From contig NC_134026.1 in NCBI RefSeq assembly GCF_964204645.1, positions 20,788,650 to 20,852,649 of the forward strand: a stretch of DNA of 64,000 nucleotides. The letters are read 5' to 3'. Position numbers and translations under genes: made by a program. The notes beneath the pieces are model-generated. The model was not told the DNA's origin. It was given only the letters and a program-made list of their open reading frames with translations, and searched no databases. The stretch's first letter is position 1; each line of letters opens with the position of its first letter. The stretch comes from Tubulanus polymorphus. Its lineage: Eukaryota > Nemertea > Palaeonemertea > Tubulaniformes > Tubulanidae. This document shows, one piece after another, positions 3,411 to 29,389 of the stretch.

Positions 3411-4209
3411 AAAAATGGCTATTGAGATGTAGTGTGAGAGTGAGAGAGAGGAGGTGCTGAGTTTCATGTACCTCTGGGCTTTACTTGATACATATAGGAA
3501 ATAATTAATGGTTTAAACCTTGAATTTACTAACAATTTATTGTGGGTTCAGAGTCTATTTCTCAACAGTTTACTGTTAACAAGCTGGTAGTAGGGTAAAA
3601 ACTACCGGTATTCAGAGATTTGTGAATCAGAAGTTTTGCCGTCATTTGCTTCATGAATCGTTCACTTGTTAAAATGAATGATGTGACACCCATGTAAAAT
3701 ACTGTTACTGGTTTATCATTGTTTTGATGGTGTCTTGGTATTCAATATCTTGCAGGTATCGTCTCCTAGTATTTCACATGGAATTGAGGAGTGTCTGAGT
3801 GAATGGGAGACATAGAGAGATTGGGCTCAAAATATCTCACTCGTTCGTTTAGGTTTAGTTTGAGATCATCTAATCAATTTTAGTGTATACATCGTGGACT
3901 ACTTTCAACTAGTAGTTCATCGTAGGTTTTAGACGTCACATCCGTAGCTCCTTCCACCACTCGTGAATTTACAATTCATTCCTATCCGATGATGTTATTT
4001 ATGATGGAATGTGTTAAAGTAGATGTCTATATTTTCATCTTTTCATAAATCGTGAAAAAATCTGGCTCATTTGAATCGAAAGCCATCAAAAGACAATAGT
4101 CTTACGCGATAATGATGGAAAATTCAAAATACAAATAGCTGTAAGGATTAAGGCATAGTTTTGAAGGGATAGAAGGCATTGAGATGTCTAAAGGGATTGC
4201 CTGTAGGTG

Positions 4210-4760
4210 GCTGAGAGATGGATGCCATTTCCTCCGAGCCCATACCTATCACTCATCACATCCTGTTGTGTCCTAGCCTCACCCCCTACATCACATCGTG
4301 TACCTCCCAAACTACACTACCAACCTTCTTCAGACGCCACCCATCCCGACCATTTCTACCGAATTCACCCTCGCCTCAACAACACCAAACATCCTTCCCC
4401 CACATCACCCAAACTTACACTTTCATATTTCTGTGACCATGCCTTACCCTATCCTTAACCTATCCTTAACCCTTATCCTACACAAACCATGCCATCATCA
4501 CACCTGTACCGCCCTCTACAAGCAACATTTCAATCCGTTATTATACACCTCCCTAACTATACATCGTACACTACCACATACACCCAACTCAAACAGTTCT
4601 ATATTAAACTTATCATCTAATCCAGCCATATCAAACAACCCTGCATCATCCAACCTGACCTTACCTTATCACAATGTCCCATCCTCCCCTAACGCGTCAA
4701 CTCCCATACCCTGTCTCATTCCATACCCAAGCGCCATACTCCTCATTCCCTCTATGATTA
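4210..4760. other. G-poor, C/A/T-rich strand-asymmetric block
   Basis: The plus strand is almost devoid of G for about 550 bases. TAG and TGA stops need G, so frames stay open here by composition. The longest, 4298-4765 (155 codons), reads as a low-complexity Pro/Thr/Leu/His string with no domain. I do not call it a gene. Such skew may reflect an expanded pyrimidine-rich repeat. Confidence 0.6.
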
Positions 4761-7042
4761 GATGAGTAGAAATGTTATGATGTTGTAGTTAGACAGATGG
4801 GATTGATTCTCATTGCTAATGAAGGTGAGAGAACAAACATTCTTCAAACTGAGGAGGAATAAGTGAACAAATGACTGCTACAGTGTTACACAGTCAGTGT
4901 TACATGTACATCAGTCACAACTCTATTAGACTGAAACAATGAGTGAAACTTCTACGGTTACAATGTGACACAAATCAGCCCGAATTAGAAAATGTTTCAC
5001 AACTTTCTATTTTTTAGACACTTTGGTTTCAGATGTGCTTTAAGATCTATTCAAATAGAATCTGATATCATCATTTCAGTTGCTATAATTTGGTTGATTC
5101 ACTTGGTTACTGTACGGAACTGATCTAGAGCTGATGTGAAGTGAGCTTAACCCAAAACGGTTCATAACTCTAAAGCTAGCTTCATATGGAGTGAGACATA
5201 TGGAGCCGAATTCAATTCATTTCAGCAACCTTTTCTTTCATATTGATTGGGAGTCCACTGTTTGCGCTACATACAAACATACATCTGCACATTTTGTATG
5301 AAGTGAATTTATTAATTAATTAATACTCTTATTTCTTAGTTTGAGAGGAAGAGGATGTCCCCTTGAATATATTTCAATTCCACACGACAAGTGGTATGTA
5401 TGAAGGTATAATTTCATAATTTCCTGCGATAGAATCTGATAAAATGATATCTATTGTTTTCATTTCAGTGTCAAATGAATGAACTAGTAGCTGATTTGAA
5501 CGGAACTCTACTGTCTGACACTTGTGGTTTGTATTGAGACTTTTCATATAAAGATCAACAACTTATTTCATCATTAACAATTTTATAATTTGTATTCCTT
5601 CAGTTTAAAGAATCTGATAAAGGAGGTGATGATCCGTTTATTAAACTCATAGTTGCGCTGGCTACTGATATGGGAGGTATGTATCGTATCTGGAGCCAAT
5701 TTTACTCTTGATTTCAACAACTGATTCCTTATGATTTTGTCCATCATTTTTCATTAGAAGGAACTGTGTAATTTGTCTGAGTGTCCGTTAATGTTAGTTG
5801 AACTATAACTCAGAGAAATGAACCGTGGATGTGATAACTACACACAGATTTCATGTAAGTATCTGGACAATTTTCATTATCAATATCTTCCGCTGAAGAA
5901 TCTGATAAATATAATGTTATGGACTTTGTGTTTTTCTTTTTAGTTTAACTGTAGCCGATAACTTAAAACCTAAACCAAGGATGTAATATTGCCACAGATA
6001 TCAGGAGTCGGCTACTGGTGTGCGGTATGTGTATGAAGACAAAATTCTATTTGAACAACTGATTTTGTGCCTATATAATGATTGAATCTGTTATTTTCAT
6101 TTCAGTGTTTGTCATTATAAGCTGAACTGGTAAATAATAAACGTACAAACTCCACTGGTTTAGTCACCTACAGACACATGGTATGTGTATAGAGACAAAT
6201 TCAATGAATCTGAAATACTTAGTTTCTTAGTTATAAATGATTTTCCATTTTGTTTTAATCTGTTAGGAGATGAACTGAACAAATCATCTGTTCAAATCCT
6301 CCATCAATAAGCGGTATGTATAAAGACAAAATTTAGACAACTTATTTCATAATTTCCTGCAATAGAATCTGATAAATCTGAATCTGTTGTTTTCATTTCA
6401 GTGTCAATCATTGTTCTTTGTTGAACTGTAAAGAATGAATGAACCAACATCTTATTTGAACTGAACTCTACGGTCCATGGTTGAACAGCTATAGACATAC
6501 AGTACGTGGTATGTGTGTATGGAGGCAATTTCAATTTATTTGAAACGCTTGTTTCATTATAATTATTGTTAATTATTATCATGATTATCCATTTTGTTTT
6601 AATCTGTTTAGGAGAAACCTGAACCAAGGATGTTATATTCCCACAGAAGTCATGTATGTATCACAACAACTTTCATTATCAATGAATATCTGTTATTTTC
6701 ATTTCAGTGTCCTAAGTTGAACTGTAAGGAATAGAACCAATGGCTGAATTGTTCAGTCAATGTTTGAGTCGGCTTCAGATATGAGTGGTATGTGTGTATG
6801 GAGACAATTCAATTTCTACAACTGATTTTGTGTTTTGTTTTTTGAAGAGGAATCTGTGAGAGATAGATGTTATAATGTAGAATTTGTTATTCTCATTTCA
6901 GTGTCCATCAATATTAAGCTGAACTGATTCAGAATGGACTTATAGATAATGAACTGTATTGCTGGAGTCAGCTACTAGTATGTGGTATGTGGTTGGAGTC
7001 AGAAATTCATCAATTACTTCATAATTTCCTATAATATAATCT

Positions 7043-7188
7043 CAGAGCTGCCAACTGTTCCTGATTTTTAGTATTTGCTACTATTTTGTAATGAGAAATA
7101 CTGATTTAGTTAATTCACATTTTGATGAAATGTTACTGAAAAAAAGCTCAATTTGTTACTGAAAGCATCTCAGAGTTTGGCAGCCCTG
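7043..7188. mobile_element. hAT-like MITE
   Basis: Terminal inverted repeats CAGAGCTGCCAAC and, in reverse complement, CAGGGCTGCCAAA enclose AT-rich filler. TAATCT flanks both sides (7037-7042 and 7189-7194) as a possible target duplication, shorter than the 8 bp usual for hAT. A second copy lies at 54965-55188. It sits in an intron of the splice array. Confidence 0.75.
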
Positions 7189-7829
7189 TAATCTGATAAA
7201 TATATGTAATAAAACCTATTGTTCTCATTTCAGTGTCCGATCAATGTTAGTTACACTGTAAGGAATAGACCTAGTAGCTGAATTGAACTGAACTGATCCA
7301 CAGTGAATGTTTGAGTCACCACTGATTTAGTCACCTACAGACACATGGTATGTGTATAGAGACAAATTCAATGAATCTGAAATACTTTGTTTCTTAGTTA
7401 TAAATCATTATCCATTTTGTTTTAATCTGTTAGGAGATGAACTGAACAAATCAACAGTTCAAATCCTGTATCAATAAGTGGTATGTATGAAGACAGAATT
7501 TTAACAACTTACTTCATAATTTCCTGCAATAGAATCTGATAAATCTGAATCTGTTGTTTTCATTTCAGTGTCAATCATAGCTGAATTGTCGAACCAAACT
7601 CCTGATTTTGTGTTTCGATTTCTGAAGAGGAATCTTACAAAGATAAATGTTATAGAATCTGATGTTTCCATTTCAGTGTCCAACATTATCATTAGTTGAA
7701 CTAAGGAGTTGAACCATGATCGCTGAATTGAACTGAACTCCTCAGTCCGTGGTTGAGTCACCTTCGGATATGAGTGGTATGTTGTATGCAGACAAATTCA
7801 ATTTCCGATTTTGGGTTTTATTTTCTGTA

Positions 7830-7994
7830 GGGGATCATTCATTTATTACGTACACATAAAATTTGAAATTTTCAACCCCCCTCCCCCTCTGTACGCAAAA
7901 TCGGCCTTTTTTCATATACATTTAGCATTACAGTACGCAATTGCACTGACCCCCTACCCCTCCCCTAATGCGTATGTAATAAATGAATGACCCC
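7830..7994. mobile_element. MITE with GGGG(A)TCATTCATTTATTAC ends
   Basis: The left end GGGGATCATTCATTTATTAC matches the reverse complement of the right end, GGGGTCATTCATTTATTAC, apart from one extra base. Both are followed inward by C/G-rich tracts, and TA lies on each flank. No transposase is encoded. It interrupts a splice-array intron. Confidence 0.8.
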
Positions 7995-8173
7995 TAGAGG
8001 ATCTTTGAAAGATAAATGTTATAGAATCTGTTGTTTTCATTTCAGTGTCAGTCATTATTAGTTGAACTGTAAGGAGTGAAACCAATAGCTGATTTTAAGT
8101 GAGCTCCACGGTCAATGTTTGAGTTGTACCGGTATGTATTGCCAGCAGATAAAACAGCTGACATTAATAATTA

Positions 8174-8351
8174 CAGTGAACCCCAGATATACCACCCTCC
8201 CATTTACCGCCATCCCCGGCTACCGCCAGGTTTTCTCAATGTACATCTCTATACAAATACATAGGAAAACAACCCCGATATACCGCCATACTCTGATCTA
8301 TAGCGCCAAAATCGTGTGCACTGATGTGGGCGGTATATCGGGGGTTGACTG
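8174..8351. mobile_element. Tc1/mariner-type MITE
   Basis: CAGTGAACCCC..ATATACC at the left matches CAGTCAACCCCCGATATACC read backwards from the right, with TTA outside both ends. The interior repeats TACCGCCA. Non-autonomous and inserted within the splice array. Confidence 0.75.
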
Positions 8352-8352
8352 T

Positions 8353-8482
8353 TATAGTAACTTCACCTTACTCGGAAATGGCACAGAGACAAAAAAAGAT
8401 TTTTCTGACTCCCTAATGCATTTTCCTATTGTTATCCTAAACAATTTTGCTGGTTTGTGCGAGTAAGGCGAGGTCTACTGTA
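8353..8482. mobile_element. Second MITE abutting the first
   Basis: The left TATAGTAACTTCACCTTACTCG and the right end (reverse complement TACAGTAGACCTCGCCTTACTCG, here split for length as TACAGTAGACC then TCGCCTTACTCG) form inverted termini. The element directly adjoins the preceding MITE, sharing the TTA between them. Confidence 0.65.
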
Positions 8483-9232
8483 TTTTACCACAAAACAATA
8501 ATCATTGAATCTGTTATTTTCATTTCAGAGTTCGTCATTATTAGCTGAACTGGTAAATAATAAACGTACAAACTCCACTGGTTTAGTCACCTACAGACAC
8601 ATGGTATGTGTATAGAGACAAATTCAATGAATCTGAAATACTTTGTTTCTTAGTTATAAATGATTTTCCATTTTGTTTTAATCCGTTAGGAGATGAACTG
8701 AACAAATCAACAGTCTTATCCTCCATCAATAAGTGGTATGAAGACAGAATTTCAACAACTTATTTCATAATTTGCTGCAATTGAAATGAATGTTATGGAA
8801 TCTGTTGTTTTCATTTCAGTGTCAATCATTGTTTGTTGAACTGTAAAGAATGATTGAACCAAAAGCTTATTTGAAGCGAGTTCCACAGTCCATGGTCGCT
8901 TCAGCTACAAACATACAGTACGTGGTATGTGTGTATGGAGGCAATTTCAATAAATTTGAAACACTTATTTCATTACTATTATCAATAATTTTCCATTTTG
9001 TTATAATTTGTTTAGGAGATGACAAATTGCCAGAGATGACCATGGATCAGTCGACATGTATGTGTCAGGACAATATTTTGTTGGGTAGAGGAATCTAGAG
9101 AGGGATAAATCTTAAAGAATCTGTCATTTCTAATTTCAGTGTCCATCATGATGAGTTGACACGAATAATATCTGATTTGAACTGAACTCGGCAGTCATTC
9201 AACAGATGTGGAGCCTGTCACACATATAAGTT

Positions 9233-9265
9233 ATGTATATATATTATATATATATATATATATAT

Positions 9266-9303
<38 letters not shown>
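9233..9303. repeat. (TA)n microsatellite
   Basis: About 70 bases of nearly pure TA, broken by one GA near the centre. Self-complementary. It lies between two cassettes of the splice array and may blur the donor of the exon starting at 9140. Confidence 0.9.
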
Positions 9304-9304
<1 letters not shown>

Positions 9305-9880
9305 GTATTTACCGCCAGCAGACAATTAAAACAACTTGCATCATTAATGATTTACTGGTTGTGAATGAACTTGAGAACAGTCGCTGCTCCTGCTCCTTAA
9401 TACCATCATTTATAGCCAGCTTTTGATAGAATCTTAACTTCTTGCACACACTTCTATCTCAAACCTAATTACCTTAATATATACTAATTCTTCCTTCTAA
9501 CTACTCGAGTCAAAAGACTGTGGTTATCATTGATAGAATTAAGGACATTATACTGACTAATTGTCATAATCTAAAAAAAAACCCAGAGTTCATTACTGCA
9601 TACTCTGCACACTCTTACAGTAAGTCCTTTTCAGAAATTGAATCAATTAATGATTCAATATCACCAACTTGTTATCTTCATTTCAGTGTCAGTCATTATT
9701 AGCTGATCTACAAATACTTGAACTCATGTTGTCTGCAGGCTACACTGATACATATCAGAGACAAGTTCAATCGATTTGAGACACTTATTCTAAGTGGTAT
9801 GTATTGAGATATATTGAGGGGTGCATCTAGTGAAATTGAAAAACTGATTGAAATTGATATGTCATTTTATGTATTTTCAG

Positions 9881-10727
9881 CTACAAATATCATGTCCCCA
9901 TTATTTCTACCACACTGACCAAAATGAATTCTTGAAAGAATCGCGTACAATTAAGAAAGATTCACACAAACATAAGGTAATTAGAATTTTATGAATGAAT
10001 GATTTATTTACGTATAATATGTATAAGGTTATAAACATAATTTCTTTAGATATACTTTCATAGATTAAGAGGTATGTTTATTGAAGATTTTAATCAGTAA
10101 ATTGGTGCTAATATTAGATGACAATAGTAGTTGATAAATTCATTATTGAAAGTGCTTAGATCTTAGAATCGTATTTATTAAAGGTGCCGCCGCACACCAG
10201 ATGGCACCATTTTACGGTCATTTTTACTACTAGACTGGTTGCCTGTGTAATAAGTACAATGCAATGAACTTTATTCACATCTAGTAACTGATACTAACCG
10301 CAATCATTTGTGGCACCCGTTTGAACAGTTTATCTGGGCCAAATTTGGCCGGACCAAAAACGTCAGACCAGGCCGAGCCACGGGACAAATGATTGCGTTT
10401 GAAATGCGACTTGTTCCTGAAACTGCTCACGCTTTCAGTTTGAACGTTGGTTTAGTATCGAGGTTTGCGTGTGAGCCAGTCGGGCTCGGGTCTGATCTGT
10501 GCTTGGTCTGGGCCACGTACGTGTGGTCGCAGTCAAAGCCTGCAGGCTGCATGATTCTGGCATAGCTTGTCGAATTCTTCATTCGCAACTGGCAACCATC
10601 TATATAGATAGCTATCGGAATCATCGCTTGCCATAGTTAGCAGTGCTGTCTCGTGTAATTAATAAGTGTTTATGTATTAATTGTAGGAATGCCTGGTGAT
10701 GTAGAGCTTGAAGTTCACAGAAGCTAA
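9881..10727 (+). CDS. Terminal exons of the array transcript, with a 52-codon open frame
   Basis: Three exons are well delimited: 9881-9976 (after TATGTATTTTCAG, donor GTAATT), 10050-10071 (after TTTCTTTAG, donor GTATGT) and 10687 to the poly(A) site (after TTAATTGTAG). Joined, they keep one frame open: 32 codons, then 7, then a split glycine codon and 12 more residues to TAA at 10725-10727. The peptide ends PGDVELEVHRS and I recognise no family. Exon phases are consistent (0, then 1), which favours coding. However, 52 open codons can arise by chance and the cassettes upstream are closed, so this may simply be the 3' part of a non-coding transcript. Confidence 0.3.
10303..10540. repeat. Rearranged copy of the GGCC-rich MITE family
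   Basis: It shares CTGGGCCAAATTTGGCCGGACCA, written here in parts (CTGGGCCAAATTT, GGCCGGACCA), TTTAGTATCGAG, GTGTGAGCCAG and GTGGTCGCAG with copies at 20218, 24853 and 54231. The order of pieces differs, so it looks nested or rearranged. It lies in the last intron of the array gene. Confidence 0.5.
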
Positions 10728-10763
10728 AACAGAGAAACCGACTCGGAATCTATATTGTGTATA

Positions 10764-10769
10764 AATAAA
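10764..10769 (+). terminator. Poly(A) signal of the splice-array transcript
   Basis: AATAAA lies 78 bases into the last exon, followed by an AT-rich and then GT-rich tract (TTGTGTTGTGTTG), the usual downstream element. This supports a genuine transcript end near 10785. Confidence 0.6.
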
Positions 10770-11025
10770 TATATTTATTATTGTGTTGTGTTGTTTATTC
10801 AGTGGGATTTGTGGTGATTCAACCACTTGATCCTGCAAGTGTTTTTTGCCCATCCAAACCCCAAATCCATTTGCGTCGTTTTGAATGACTTAAGTTTCAA
10901 AGTGATACACAAATCTTAAGGAAATCTAAAGACTAGTACCGGTAATAAGATTTATTGATCACTTTTTAAACTTCCGACAAGAAGATAAAGAAAAGACTGT
11001 ACTTTAACGACTGTTCAACTGGGCC

Positions 11026-14740: not shown

Positions 14741-15234
14741 GGTTGAGAAAAGGGTTAGGTTTCATTTGTTATGGGCAGGAATGATTAGTAGGTAGGGCAA
14801 GTAGCACTTTAGGCCTACCACAGGCACTTGAATACTGGCTAAGATGATGGATAAATATTAAATTATTCACCGGCAATATGTTATTCCTACTTTGATAATC
14901 TACCCAGAATTTACGCGCCCGTCGTTTAACTATACTAAGCCTATACAGAAAGGCAGGAAACACTCCTATCTCTGTAATGCCTTAATCTACCTGCAAATAT
15001 CGGGACTGCCGAACTCTGCCGACGATTGTCAAAGTTCATTCCGAGGTGTCCTTTTCAATCCTGAAATATAAGGAGCGCCCATAACTTCAATTGTGGACAA
15101 TTTTTGGAAAACATTGACACTGTTTTAGCATTGGAACATTAAGGCAAAATTATCATCCATTTCCTACTTTCACAATAAGCTCTTACCTATTCAGTGCAGA
15201 ATTTGTCATTTAGCCTACGTTGAATTGATTTCAG

Positions 15235-15375
15235 CCGTGATACTCATTAAGTCATATGGTTGGTATATCGTTTTGGCCGTTGTTGCTGTCGCTTTCCTAA
15301 AGAATAGATATGAGCACAAATTCAGGAATCTCATGTTTTGGAAGAGGAAAAAGAAGAACGAAGGACTGCAATATG
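15235..15375 (+). CDS. SELENOS: Selenoprotein S, exon 2 (membrane helix)
   Basis: After the acceptor TTGATTTCAG, the exon completes A56 and encodes residues 57-102. It contains SYGWYIVLAVVAVAFL (residues 62-77). The YGWYI motif and the hydrophobic run match the single transmembrane segment of vertebrate SELENOS, followed by a basic cytosolic stretch (NRYEHKFRNLMFWKRKKK). It ends ATATG with donor GTAAAT and leaves one base of codon 103. The phase agrees on both sides, so this is a true internal exon. The membrane segment places the rest of the protein in the cytosol. Confidence 0.88.
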
Positions 15376-16023
15376 GTAAATTTAAAGAAAATCCCTTAGA
15401 CTTGTCAGAAGTCATCTGTTATCATTAGATTGCTATTATTCTTGAAATGAGCTACACGTTTAAACACAAGAATTGGATCTATCCCACAACTGTAGAACTT
15501 GTTTGACATAGCCTACTTAGAACCTGCGTTGTCCTTGCTGGTGTGTGGGCATCCAGGCTTGCTTGATGAAGTCAAGAGTCTTCGGTCTGCTAGTTTCACA
15601 TGTCGTCAGTCTTTTTATTTCCATTTCATTGACCATGGAATACCTCCACGTTTCTCTGGGCCATCCCCTATTTATTTGGGTTGACTAGTTGAGAGTGGTA
15701 TTAGGACGAGCATTAGAGGGCATCCTGAGTAAGCTTACATGTTCTGGCCAGTTCCACTCTAAAAAACTTCGGAAGATGATATTTTCTAATTAAATGTATA
15801 GAATAGTCCTGAGTTCAGTTGCTGAAAATGTGGTTAGATATAACTGTTGGATACACACCATGATTAAAATGCGTTAACAATTTTCACTATGGCATTTACA
15901 TACCTTACAGATAACTCTCCAACCAACATTTCTGCAACTGGCTCATATTGAAGCACACCGAATATACAGCCTGATACTTTGTCGGTAAATTTGCCTCGAG
16001 TTGTATAATCATTTTCGATGTAG

Positions 16024-16130
16024 ATGCGGACACCGCCCTAAAACGCCAGGAAGCTATGGAGAACACACGCCGAAGGTGGCAAGAACAACACGATGCCCAA
16101 GCGGCAAGATTTGCTGAAGAACAACGTAAA
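16024..16130 (+). CDS. SELENOS: Selenoprotein S, exon 3 (helical VCP-binding region)
   Basis: The exon follows TTTTCGATGTAG, completes D103 and encodes residues 103-138: DADTALKRQEAMENTRRR, then WQEQHDAQAARFAEEQRK. DADTALKRQEA aligns with the DVVVKRQEA block of human SELENOS. Residues 108-138 are a charged, Gln/Glu/Arg-rich helix. In vertebrates the VCP-interacting motif RX5AAX2R starts in this block. Here R110 and R120 have the right spacing, but the AA pair is replaced by N116-T117, so VCP binding through this motif may be weakened, or the downstream AQAAR may substitute. The donor is GTAAGC. Confidence 0.9.
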
Positions 16131-16153
16131 GTAAGCAAAATAGTCTCATTTTC

Positions 16154-16330
16154 AGCCCACTTGGGACATAAGTCCCAGCGGGCTATTGCGTTCACTTTTT
16201 ATTTGTTGTCTGTCCATCCGGAATTCATTTATGTTATTTTAGGAAGATTTGAAGATGCTTCAATGGATAATCTTGATATTTGGTTTGTTCCTACCTGATT
16301 GCTTGGTGCTTCTTGACCACCCGTCCTTGG
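16154..16330 (+). mobile_element. Truncated copy of the AGCCCACTTGGGA element
   Basis: It starts 23 bases after the exon 3 donor with AGCCCACTTGGGAC and CCCAGCGGGCTATTGCGT, the left end of the larger element at 16648. It then continues through the same GAAGATTTGAAGATGCTTC region before similarity fades near 16330. Probably an older, 3'-truncated insertion. Confidence 0.6.
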
Positions 16331-16647: not shown

Positions 16648-17902
16648 AGCCCACTTAGGACTTTAGTCCCAGCGGGCTATTGCGTCCACTTTTCGTCCGT
16701 CCGTTCGTCCGTCCGTCCGTCCGTAGCCGGAATCCAGTTATTTTGGGAAGTTTTGAAGACGCTTCAAGGTAATGTCTTGATATTTGGTTTATACATGTAT
16801 CTACCCTAGACACATCTTCAGCCCAAAAACTGGCCCTATCAGAATCAAGATGGCCGACTGGCAGCCATTGTTGTTCGCCAAAATCAGCACTTTTTACACA
16901 TTTTCGAAGTTTACGAGGGAAATTTTGAAGACGATATGATCAATTACCTTGATCTTTCGAATATATTTGAATCTACCAAGGGCCCATCAGCATAAGAAAC
17001 ATTTGGTCCATCTGACTCAAGATGGCCGTCCTATGACCTTTTTAGTGCCCAAAAATGTCAATTTTGGCTTCCTACTGGTTTGCCATTTCTCATTGCAATT
17101 TGTGATGGGTATTCTTTGTAAAGGGATGTTTTATACCTGAGATAGGTATATTTGATCCGCCAATGATGACGCAATTGGCGGCCATCTTGGTGTCATTAGT
17201 ACTCATTCGTAGGTGGGAAAAAGTTTTTCGACATTATATTGTTACCTAAGCATATTTTGTTATTTTGTTACAACAATGAATTAGAAAGTTGTAGCGTATA
17301 ACGTGTTCTATGATTGGGGTGAGTTTCAAGTTCATTGTTTTTTGTATATGGCCACCAGGGGGCGTTGAATAATACAATATCTTAGTATTTCTATATTATA
17401 TTTGTACCAATACATATTTTGTTACCCCAATCAATTGCAAAGTTGTAGCTCATGACATCATCTATGATTGTGGTGAGTTTTAAGGAAATTAGTTATTCTA
17501 TATGGTCACCAGGGGGCGTTGAATAGTAGAATAACCTGGTATTTCCTTATTATATTGGTACCTAGGCATATTTTGTTGCCATGATCAATTGCAAAGTTGT
17601 AGTTCATGACATGTTCTATGAATATGGTGAGTTACAAGGTTATTGGGTTTTGAATATGGTCACCAGGGGGCGTTGAATAGTAGATTAACTTAGTATTTCC
17701 ATATTAAATTAGTAACGAGGCATTTTTTGTTATCACAATCAATTACAAAATCGTAGCTGCTGACATGTTTTATGATTGTATTGAGTTTCAAGGTCATTGG
17801 TTTTTGTATATGGTCACCAGAGGGCGTTGAATATTGAAATTGTTAGATTGTTGAGCATTTGAAACCACTTCCCAAGTGGGCATGGTGTCCCTGGACCCCT
17901 AG
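16648..17902 (+). mobile_element. 1.25 kb inverted-repeat element carrying tandem CTCF-like cores
   Basis: The left end AGCCCACTTAGGA and a right-end block reading TGCCCACTTGGGA in reverse complement give short inverted ends. TTCAATTTTT lies on both flanks (16638-16647 and 17903-17912) as a 10-base target duplication, although it is AT-rich. The left part contains a (GTCC)n run, and the right half is a 154-base tandem array. No transposase is visible, so this is a non-autonomous element. Copies or pieces occur at 16154, near 18185-18320, and at the right edge of the window from 63884. Confidence 0.65.
17255..17870 (+). repeat. 154-base tandem array with CCACCAGGGGGC cores
   Basis: Four units share the same order: a TATTTTGTTA(C)..ATCAAT block, AAAGTTGTAG or a variant, a TCTATGATTG or variant, GTGAGTT.CAAGG, then TATGG(C/T)CACCAG(G/A)GGGCGTTGAAT. 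The cores start at 17351, 17505, 17659 and 17813, exactly 154 bases apart each time. The core matches the vertebrate and insect CTCF consensus CCASYAGRKGGC in full for the first unit and with one or two changes in the others. The unit lies inside the mobile element in SELENOS intron 3. Confidence 0.75.
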
Positions 17903-28128: not shown

Positions 28129-28467
28129 TTACCTACGTCTGCCGTAGCGCATCAGTTTGTTCGCGACGCCCTTGTCCGGGATGCCGCCTTGCGCCACCTG
28201 CGCGGCCAGCTCTGCGGGCACCTCGGCGTATCCTTGTCCCGGTAGCCAGATCCACGCCATTTCGCCACGTTTCGACGGCGCGGCGTCTATTTTTAAGTCG
28301 GACATCGCGTTCAGCTGGTGGTGTCGGCGGCCGGCGATTTGTAAGAGGCGCGCGATCGTCGGGTCGAATTTGTTCGTTCGGCGGAGATCTTTGTCGGACA
28401 ACGCGTCAGTTAACACGGCGCTTACGAATACCAGATAAAATAGTTGATATATCGTTGATGTCTTCAT
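28129..28467 (-). CDS. Amidated neuropeptide precursor, NKY-like
   Basis: A complete 112-residue secreted precursor. Residues 1-24 form a signal peptide (MKTSTIYQLFYLVFVSAVLT, then DALS). Dibasic processing sites are R29-R30, R47-R48 and K66-R67. The main product is residues 68-108, 41 residues, starting GEMAWIWLPGQGY and ending ANKLMRY. G109 followed by R110-R112 and the stop makes it a C-terminally amidated ...LMRY-amide. A 17-residue spacer peptide (49-65) lies between the second and third sites. The layout, with a long amidated peptide at the very end, and the W.WLPGQGY..VP.ELA / MRY-amide pattern suggest the spiralian NKY family; this match is from memory. NPF/NPY is less likely, since the Y-rich helix and RPRF/RQRY end are absent. 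Expected role: ligand of a G-protein-coupled receptor, stored in dense-core vesicles. The whole coding region is one exon. Confidence 0.88.
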   Translation of the reverse strand: MKTSTIYQLFYLVFVSAVLTDALSDKDLRRTNKFDPTIARLLQIAGRRHHQLNAMSDLKIDAAPSKRGEMAWIWLPGQGYAEVPAELAAQVAQGGIPDKGVANKLMRYGRRR

Positions 28468-28503
28468 ATCTATATTTGAGGGGAGTTTTTCAGTCTTTTT
28501 TGT

Positions 28504-28520
28504 CCTGAAAAATAGAAAGA
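28504..28520 (-). promoter_or_regulatory. 3' splice site before the neuropeptide coding exon
   Basis: On the minus strand CTCTTTCTATTTTTCAG precedes GACAAAAAAGACTG, and the start codon lies 38 bases into the exon (first base about 28504). The long pyrimidine tract makes this a strong acceptor, so the gene has at least one upstream non-coding exon. Confidence 0.75.
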
Positions 28521-29389
28521 GGTGTACATATATATAGACGTGCTGGGTTAATCAGAAGTACATGATTGTATATGAAAACAAAAGATCAACAATTCAGCAA
28601 TGAAGGAAAAAGGGAAAAAAATTCATATCTATTAAGTGAAACAATATTCTTTGCGTGATATTTACAAATCCATGATATATGAATTTCGCGATGTTTTAGA
28701 AAATCGGTTTGTTAGAATCCGAACAATTTTATTGGAGGCAATTGATGGCCGAATGTAAAGTGTCTAGGTTTAAATATACAATGTCATATTTAATTCTTAT
28801 AGGTTACCTTGAAGTTTACAGTATATTGAAGAACACGAGTTTCGTCGCCGATAACTATAACTTGTGTATTTTAGATTGAATTCATATTGTTTGAATCCAA
28901 ATATGGGGCCGGTTCTGCCAGCCCTGTAGGGAATGTATATACCCTGAAAAGCAGTTCTTCTTAAAGTAGAATGAAATAGATGGATTATTTGATTTCTTAT
29001 CGTCAATATTTCCATTTAAATGTAAGCTTTAGATATTTCATTAGCGATTGAATAACTATTTTATTTCATCATTCGTTCTTGATTAGAAACGTCATCCGTA
29101 GGGCCTTCCTTAAAAGATGGCTGACTCCATTAAACCCCTTTGAGATCATTGAATTGCCAATTGGGTTTAGTTTTTCAGGCACCTCGGGCTTTGTTTTTCA
29201 GTGGTATTAACTCTTAATCCTGGACGTGTTAAATTTCACTATCCCTGTGATTTGAAAATTTGTATCCCCGAGGGAGAGCGATACGTAGCCTAGGAGCGTA
29301 AAGCTTAAGCTTGACAAAATTGTTATGTCTGAATTTTTTGGCTTACTGAAAAATTGGTGAAATTGTATCTAAACCTAAACAAGATAACT

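Follow-up and report, generated by a model that had tools for sequence, protein, structure and literature searches.

A tandem array of candidate exons in Tubulanus polymorphus as the possible body of a multicopy spliced noncoding RNA gene

An array of acceptor–exon–donor cassettes

We analysed a 64,000-nt window of the 268-Mb genome of the nemertean Tubulanus polymorphus (C2:20788650–20852649; coordinates below refer to this window unless a contig is named), which carries on its plus strand, at 5340–9976, a tandem array of 22 candidate exons. In our best reading, the array belongs to a noncoding RNA gene family that would have grown by unequal exchange and been retained more for being spliced than for the sequence of its exons. 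More specifically, the array may be the body of a spliced, polyadenylated noncoding RNA gene, the right-hand member of a dispersed pair, whose cassettes multiplied while splicing was kept, a proposal to which we give about an even chance. A sequence-only reading had previously taken the region for a long noncoding RNA (lncRNA) grown by cassette duplication, and that interpretation is partly supported: the exons share no reading frame and are rich in stops when joined, splice dinucleotides are spared, the AATAAA region is conserved, and a paralogue repeats the same block more often. Out of reach of that reading was that the array is one gene of a divergent pair with copies throughout the genome.

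The candidate exons measure 42–114 nt, and each is flanked by a pyrimidine-rich acceptor, ending in TTTCAG in 13 of 22 cases, and by a donor, which is GTATGT in 17 of 22. The earlier estimate was about 18 cassettes. One fixed rule identified 21 cassettes on the plus strand of 5080–9980 and 1 on the minus strand, which confirms the cassettes proposed from the letters. Dinucleotide shuffling of the plus strand, repeated 200 times, gave a mean of 2.24 and a maximum of 7, and 40 tile-strands from the remainder of the window gave a mean of 1.02 and a maximum of 4. The window contains 12 occurrences of the motif TCATTTCAGTGTC at no more than one mismatch (expected, 0.10), all of them on the plus strand inside 5460–9690.

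The exons with GTATGT donors are at 5340–5393 (exon 1), 5604–5676 (exon 3), 5944–6024 (exon 5, the GT of which is different in the C6 and C3 copies), 6106–6180 (exon 6), 6267–6313 (exon 7), 6402–6508 (exon 8, with an alternative donor GTACGT at 6502), 6612–6653 (exon 9), 6708–6787 (exon 10), 6902–6984 (exon 11, with an alternative at 6978), 7234–7347 (exon 12), 7434–7480 (exon 13), 7677–7776 (exon 14), 8046–8131 (exon 15), 8529–8603 (exon 16), 8820–8924 (exon 18, with an alternative GTACGT at 8918), 9016–9057 (exon 19) and 9687–9796 (exon 21). The remaining donors are GTTTGT at exon 2 (5469–5526), GTAAGT at exon 4 (5758–5854), GTATGA at exon 17 (8690–8735), a weak GTATAT leading into a (TA)n tract at exon 20 (9140–9234) and a weak GTAATT at exon 22 (9881–9976). 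By reading, a further cassette beginning at 7569 has no donor. The intron preceding 8046 holds an insert resembling a miniature inverted-repeat transposable element at 7831–7994 (inverted repeat I6), with 27-nt inverted ends at 7831–7857 and 7968–7994, and another repeat-like insert at about 8190–8350 was noted by reading only.

Superimposed on the cassettes is a higher-order block of about 1.2 kb that recurs three times, as previously described. Its 260-nt plus-strand cores (repeat family D1) lie at 6152–6411, 7319–7578 and 8575–8834, spaced 1167 and 1256 nt apart, with ungapped identities to the first core of 95% and 67% for the second and third. Exons upstream of 5340 and downstream of 9976 are uncertain. 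A 3' block common to other copies (10613–10888, plus strand) contains a candidate last exon starting at an acceptor candidate at 10687 and an AATAAA at 10764–10769 followed by a GT-rich stretch; all 5 of the compact copies aligned from elsewhere in the genome have the AATAAA as well.

Dispersed relatives and a divergent pair

Genome-wide copy counts given here are lower bounds. The closest relative found lies at C6:2.167–2.207 Mb, where the same block of about 1.2 kb recurs more often and the same rule identified 76 cassettes over a stretch of 20.8 kb, for which shuffles average 10.98 and reach at most 22. Further amplified copies occur on C3 at 0.43–1.34 Mb and on C6 at 0.63–1.77 Mb; a C3 copy scored by the rule has 11 cassettes, and a C6 copy has 7. 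Genome-wide, 37 matches to the 3' block were found, including 17 short ones on C1, C2, C3, C5, C6, C7, C8 and C10; six of these short-match loci were examined and are compact, with about two cassettes each by eye. On C3, four of eight intervals between copies measure 44–46 kb. A ribosomal DNA spacer, suggested by this spacing of about 44 kb, is unlikely because the copies are dispersed, although it may still fit the C3 copies. In the C3 and C6 copies (loci L011, L016 and L017), arm and cassettes are separated by a 53-bp minisatellite whose length varies widely from copy to copy.

The array is one of two genes, both apparently noncoding, that lie head to head; it is the one on the right, and copies of the pair occur on at least eight contigs. 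In the window, the right-hand arm (4427–5241, plus strand) has dispersed copies and is an inverted copy of its partner at C2:20784887–20785611, on the minus strand upstream of the window (86% identity over 744 columns in a self-comparison). Of 40 scored places matching the inner arm, 34 can be grouped by position into 17 divergent pairs, and in every pair the left-hand copy is the one on the minus strand; one of the six unpaired places has a plus-strand partner in the outer-arm search, for which the best 40 of 115 candidate places were scored. A separate minisatellite belongs to the left-hand gene, as does a conserved outer piece, which was found at 31 places. When 26 arms were placed in a tree, seven left arms from seven places formed one clade (support 100/100), so that the pair was probably made once and then copied as a unit; 13 of the 23 inner branches of this tree are weakly supported. 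Gene conversion between the two arms of one locus was not seen, as the left arms from different places group together.

Both arms carry a G-poor stretch on their outward strand. In the window, it is a C-rich segment at 4250–4750 (plus strand) with 1–6 G in every 50-nt bin of 4250–4749, and the lowest-G 400-nt stretches of the whole window begin at 4250–4350; it might serve as a promoter or first exon. These approximately 500 nearly G-free nucleotides are retained in the arms of dispersed copies. Many copies sit, by inspection, in the outer few megabases of contigs. A telomere-like origin of the G-poor arm was considered, but the counts are weak: in the 12 of 26 arms searched there was no telomeric repeat array, with TTAGGG occurring 0 times and CCCTAA 1–2 times per arm.

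Splice dinucleotides are spared in two of four comparisons

Splice dinucleotides were spared in two of four comparisons with matched AG and GT dinucleotides (p values are raw, over four comparisons). In an alignment of eight block copies, seven from C6 and one from the window, 0 of 28 splice-dinucleotide columns varied, compared with 77 of 513 exon columns and 140 of 531 remaining intron columns; of the 91 polypyrimidine columns, 13 varied, as did 2 of the 28 at donor positions +3 to +6. The matched control for these copies revealed changes in 0 of 14 splice AG/GT versus 41 of 113 other AG/GT (p = 0.005). When the window was compared with the collinear parts of its closest C6 paralogue, 1 of 36 splice AG/GT differed versus 87 of 361 others (p = 0.0013). 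In this pair, divergence was equal in exon bodies, at 166 of 1445 positions, and in the remainder, at 239 of 2095 (including some sequence from outside the array), in a tally that counts a 13-nt segment overlap twice, which the matched test does not; gap positions numbered 14 in exons and 137 in the rest.

Between these copies, the splice dinucleotides do not decay like the rest, and the earlier statement that splice signals are better conserved than exon bodies holds for the block copies and the closest paralogue; two more distant comparisons, given below, point in the same direction (splice AG/GT spared) without reaching significance. Together, these patterns suggest that constraint on exon content is weak, if there is any. 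With splice signals better preserved than exon contents, being spliced may matter more to the array than the message it would carry.

Several observations weigh against this interpretation. The two distant comparisons were not significant, with differences in 1 of 20 splice AG/GT versus 35 of 188 others between the window and a C3 copy (p = 0.21) and in 2 of 16 versus 30 of 122 between the window and another C6 copy (p = 0.36). At least three of five aligned compact copies have, by reading, lost a donor or acceptor, and one compact copy yielded a single cassette by the rule, which is the chance level (shuffle mean 0.63, maximum 3). Among the block copies, change was also rarer in exons (117 of 4022 cells) than in introns (225 of 4092), and the same was true against the C3 copy (59 of 799 versus 115 of 956), so that exon sequence may be constrained as well. 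Finally, the first donor and the transcription start of the array gene were not identified.

Exons without coding potential or a known RNA family

The array exons have no protein-coding potential, as judged from frames, stops, exon lengths and Pfam. Exon lengths occupy all classes modulo 3 (9, 5 and 8 of 22). Stops had earlier been said to fall early in all frames; this is true on the plus strand for 14 of the 22 exons, and the other 8 have at least one open frame. Eleven exons have no open frame on the minus strand. When the 22 exons are joined (1713 nt), the longest frame is 48 amino acids, a length reached by 492 of 500 shuffles (mean 73), and in the C6 paralogue the 22 exons listed first gave, when joined, 34 amino acids, reached by 500 of 500 (mean 71); these shuffles preserve base composition only. 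A Pfam search of ten window frames gave a pair of matches, with E values of 0.098 and 0.05, that fall far short of the curated cut-off. Protein coding was rejected on these frames and stops, with no open frame kept through the exons.

Known RNA families were likewise not found in the array. No intron of 21 contains an exact C box, which agrees with the earlier remark that boxes of small nucleolar RNAs (snoRNAs) are not regular here. Rfam gave no match at the gathering score and only chance-level matches below it, and no tRNA was detected at the set threshold. A snoRNA host gene was rejected on the C box and Rfam results. Nine of the 22 exons were folded singly and revealed no common structure, with z-scores of −2.16 (5758–5854), −1.67 (5944–6024) and, for the other seven, −0.98 to +0.80.

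A proposed mechanism and its rivals

We propose that RNA polymerase II would start in or near the arm at 4427–5241 and proceed rightward, that the transcript would be spliced through the cassettes by the usual machinery, and that it would end at the conserved AATAAA. Duplication of the head-to-head pair as a whole would have carried it to many places in the genome, and cassettes, each consisting of an acceptor, an exon without a shared frame and a donor, would have been gained and lost by unequal exchange, partly as the block of about 1.2 kb. Selection would act mainly in cis on splicing itself, or on the binding of splicing factors, and not on exon sequence; our leading functional guess is that splicing acts in cis on chromatin or neighbouring genes. 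The narrower idea that selection keeps the act of splicing rather than the RNA product, with the number of splicing events per transcript varying by cassette gain and loss, is one that we hold tentatively and think rather unlikely to be correct.

Host genes of the SNHG14 type consist of tandem exon–intron cassettes that carry snoRNAs; the array resembles them in being an apparently noncoding gene body of this kind but lacks a C box or snoRNA family match. TERRA and other subtelomeric noncoding transcripts are, like the array, multicopy noncoding units, and many array copies lie toward contig ends, but no telomeric repeat array was seen in the arms searched.

Other parallels concern splicing itself. 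In human long intergenic noncoding RNAs (lincRNAs), constraint is mostly splice-related and the process of splicing rather than its product may matter, according to passages of Schuler et al. 2014 (PMC4245815), in which product versus process is an open point. The array is similar in that splice-related sequence is what stays conserved, but it is known from paralogues in one genome and is one multicopy gene with multiplied cassettes. For multi-exonic enhancer-associated lincRNAs, passages of Tan et al. 2020 (PMC7035876) propose that conserved splicing affects activity in cis, as we propose here; unlike those genes, the array has exons that are tandem copies and is known from sequence alone. 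A reading of the array in which the process matters is in line with what these passages of both papers put forward. If it is true, the cassette series, from 1 in a compact copy (about 2 by eye) through 7 and 11 in amplified copies and 21–22 in the window to 76 in the C6 paralogue, would form a natural series of doses for the hypothesis that noncoding RNAs are spliced for the sake of the process. Paralogues several-fold different in cassette number, in which splice signals are spared while exon bodies have diverged from the closest paralogue as much as the rest, would then allow a test of product against process within one genome. A second point of interest is the architecture, in which two divergent and apparently noncoding genes have been copied together to positions next to unrelated genes. 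Among the papers listed in literature searches on tandem-exon, multicopy and splice-constrained lncRNAs and on subtelomeric, divergent or inverted-repeat arrangements, none was seen to describe such an array, which is not proof of absence.

The strongest competing explanation, possible if doubtful, is that the divergent pair, taken as a whole, is a mobile element of several kilobases, or a non-autonomous derivative related to such an element, moving as DNA together with its introns and making its own outward transcripts. It would account for copies that were made as one unit and that lie, on eight contigs or more, at sites unrelated to one another and beside different genes, such as ALG3 on C1 and a probable Selenoprotein S gene right of the window copy. 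At the edges read, however, neither shared ends nor target-site duplications could be established, apparently sharp edges are partly explained by nested dispersed repeats and, in one copy, by an insert resembling a short interspersed nuclear element, and no transposase was found in the part of the copies read.

We consider it improbable that the array is an untranscribed repeat or decaying relic with splice-like signals left from an ancestor. Loci rich in minisatellites of several kinds, the loss of splice sites in some compact copies and the two non-significant matched tests speak for such a relic, but it fits poorly with the sparing of splice AG/GT in the other two tests and with the conservation of the 3' AATAAA region across dispersed copies. 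Lower still do we rate a precursor of small RNAs, such as Piwi-interacting RNAs (piRNAs), transcribed outward from a divergent promoter. Divergent piRNA loci share the divergent, multicopy, noncoding architecture, but all 51 matches to one piece of the array (best candidates scored) fall, by position, in loci of the family itself, and hardly any fragments of mobile elements were noticed within the array; neither point amounts to a test. A tandem-exon protein gene, its pseudogene or a snoRNA host gene is very improbable: tandem exons with good splice sites occur in such genes, but the exon lengths, the plus-frame stops in 14 of 22 exons and joined frames shorter than in shuffles speak against a protein, and the missing C boxes and Rfam matches and the shortness of the introns (16 of 21 only 54–114 nt long) against a snoRNA host.

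The noncoding RNA gene spliced through its cassettes remains our preferred explanation.

Neighbouring genes and other features

The ALG3 gene adjoining the C1 copy was identified by Pfam (E = 2.3e-140). To the right of the window copy, Selenoprotein S matches lie at 15975–16298 (above the Pfam cut-off) and 15129–15428 (below it), and 15129–16298 on the plus strand is probably a SELENOS gene. The C1 and C7 copies have a block in common near their outer left edge, with motifs that we take to be YY1-like and ETS-like; that this block drives neighbouring genes is a guess. In the flank of the C1 copy, a 135-bp piece (L042, about 1050–1190) is 92–100% identical to many genome places and represents a young dispersed repeat, and the flank of the C7 copy contains a short palindromic dispersed repeat (L033, about 3562–3730; 452 candidates at first look) that is absent from the C1 copy.

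A search of PDB with one neighbouring frame found nothing. On the minus strand, 28129–28551 encodes a 112-amino-acid stretch from a methionine with a signal-like start and a peptide of about 41 residues ending in LMRYG before RRR, which has what we take to be the look of an NKY-type neuropeptide precursor. Pfam gave no match for this frame. A precursor of this type would point to a lophotrochozoan animal. The length of NKY and its RY/Famide ending are covered in passages of PMC8557429. Finally, a 154-bp tandem repeat occupies 17261–17833 with 3.7 copies.

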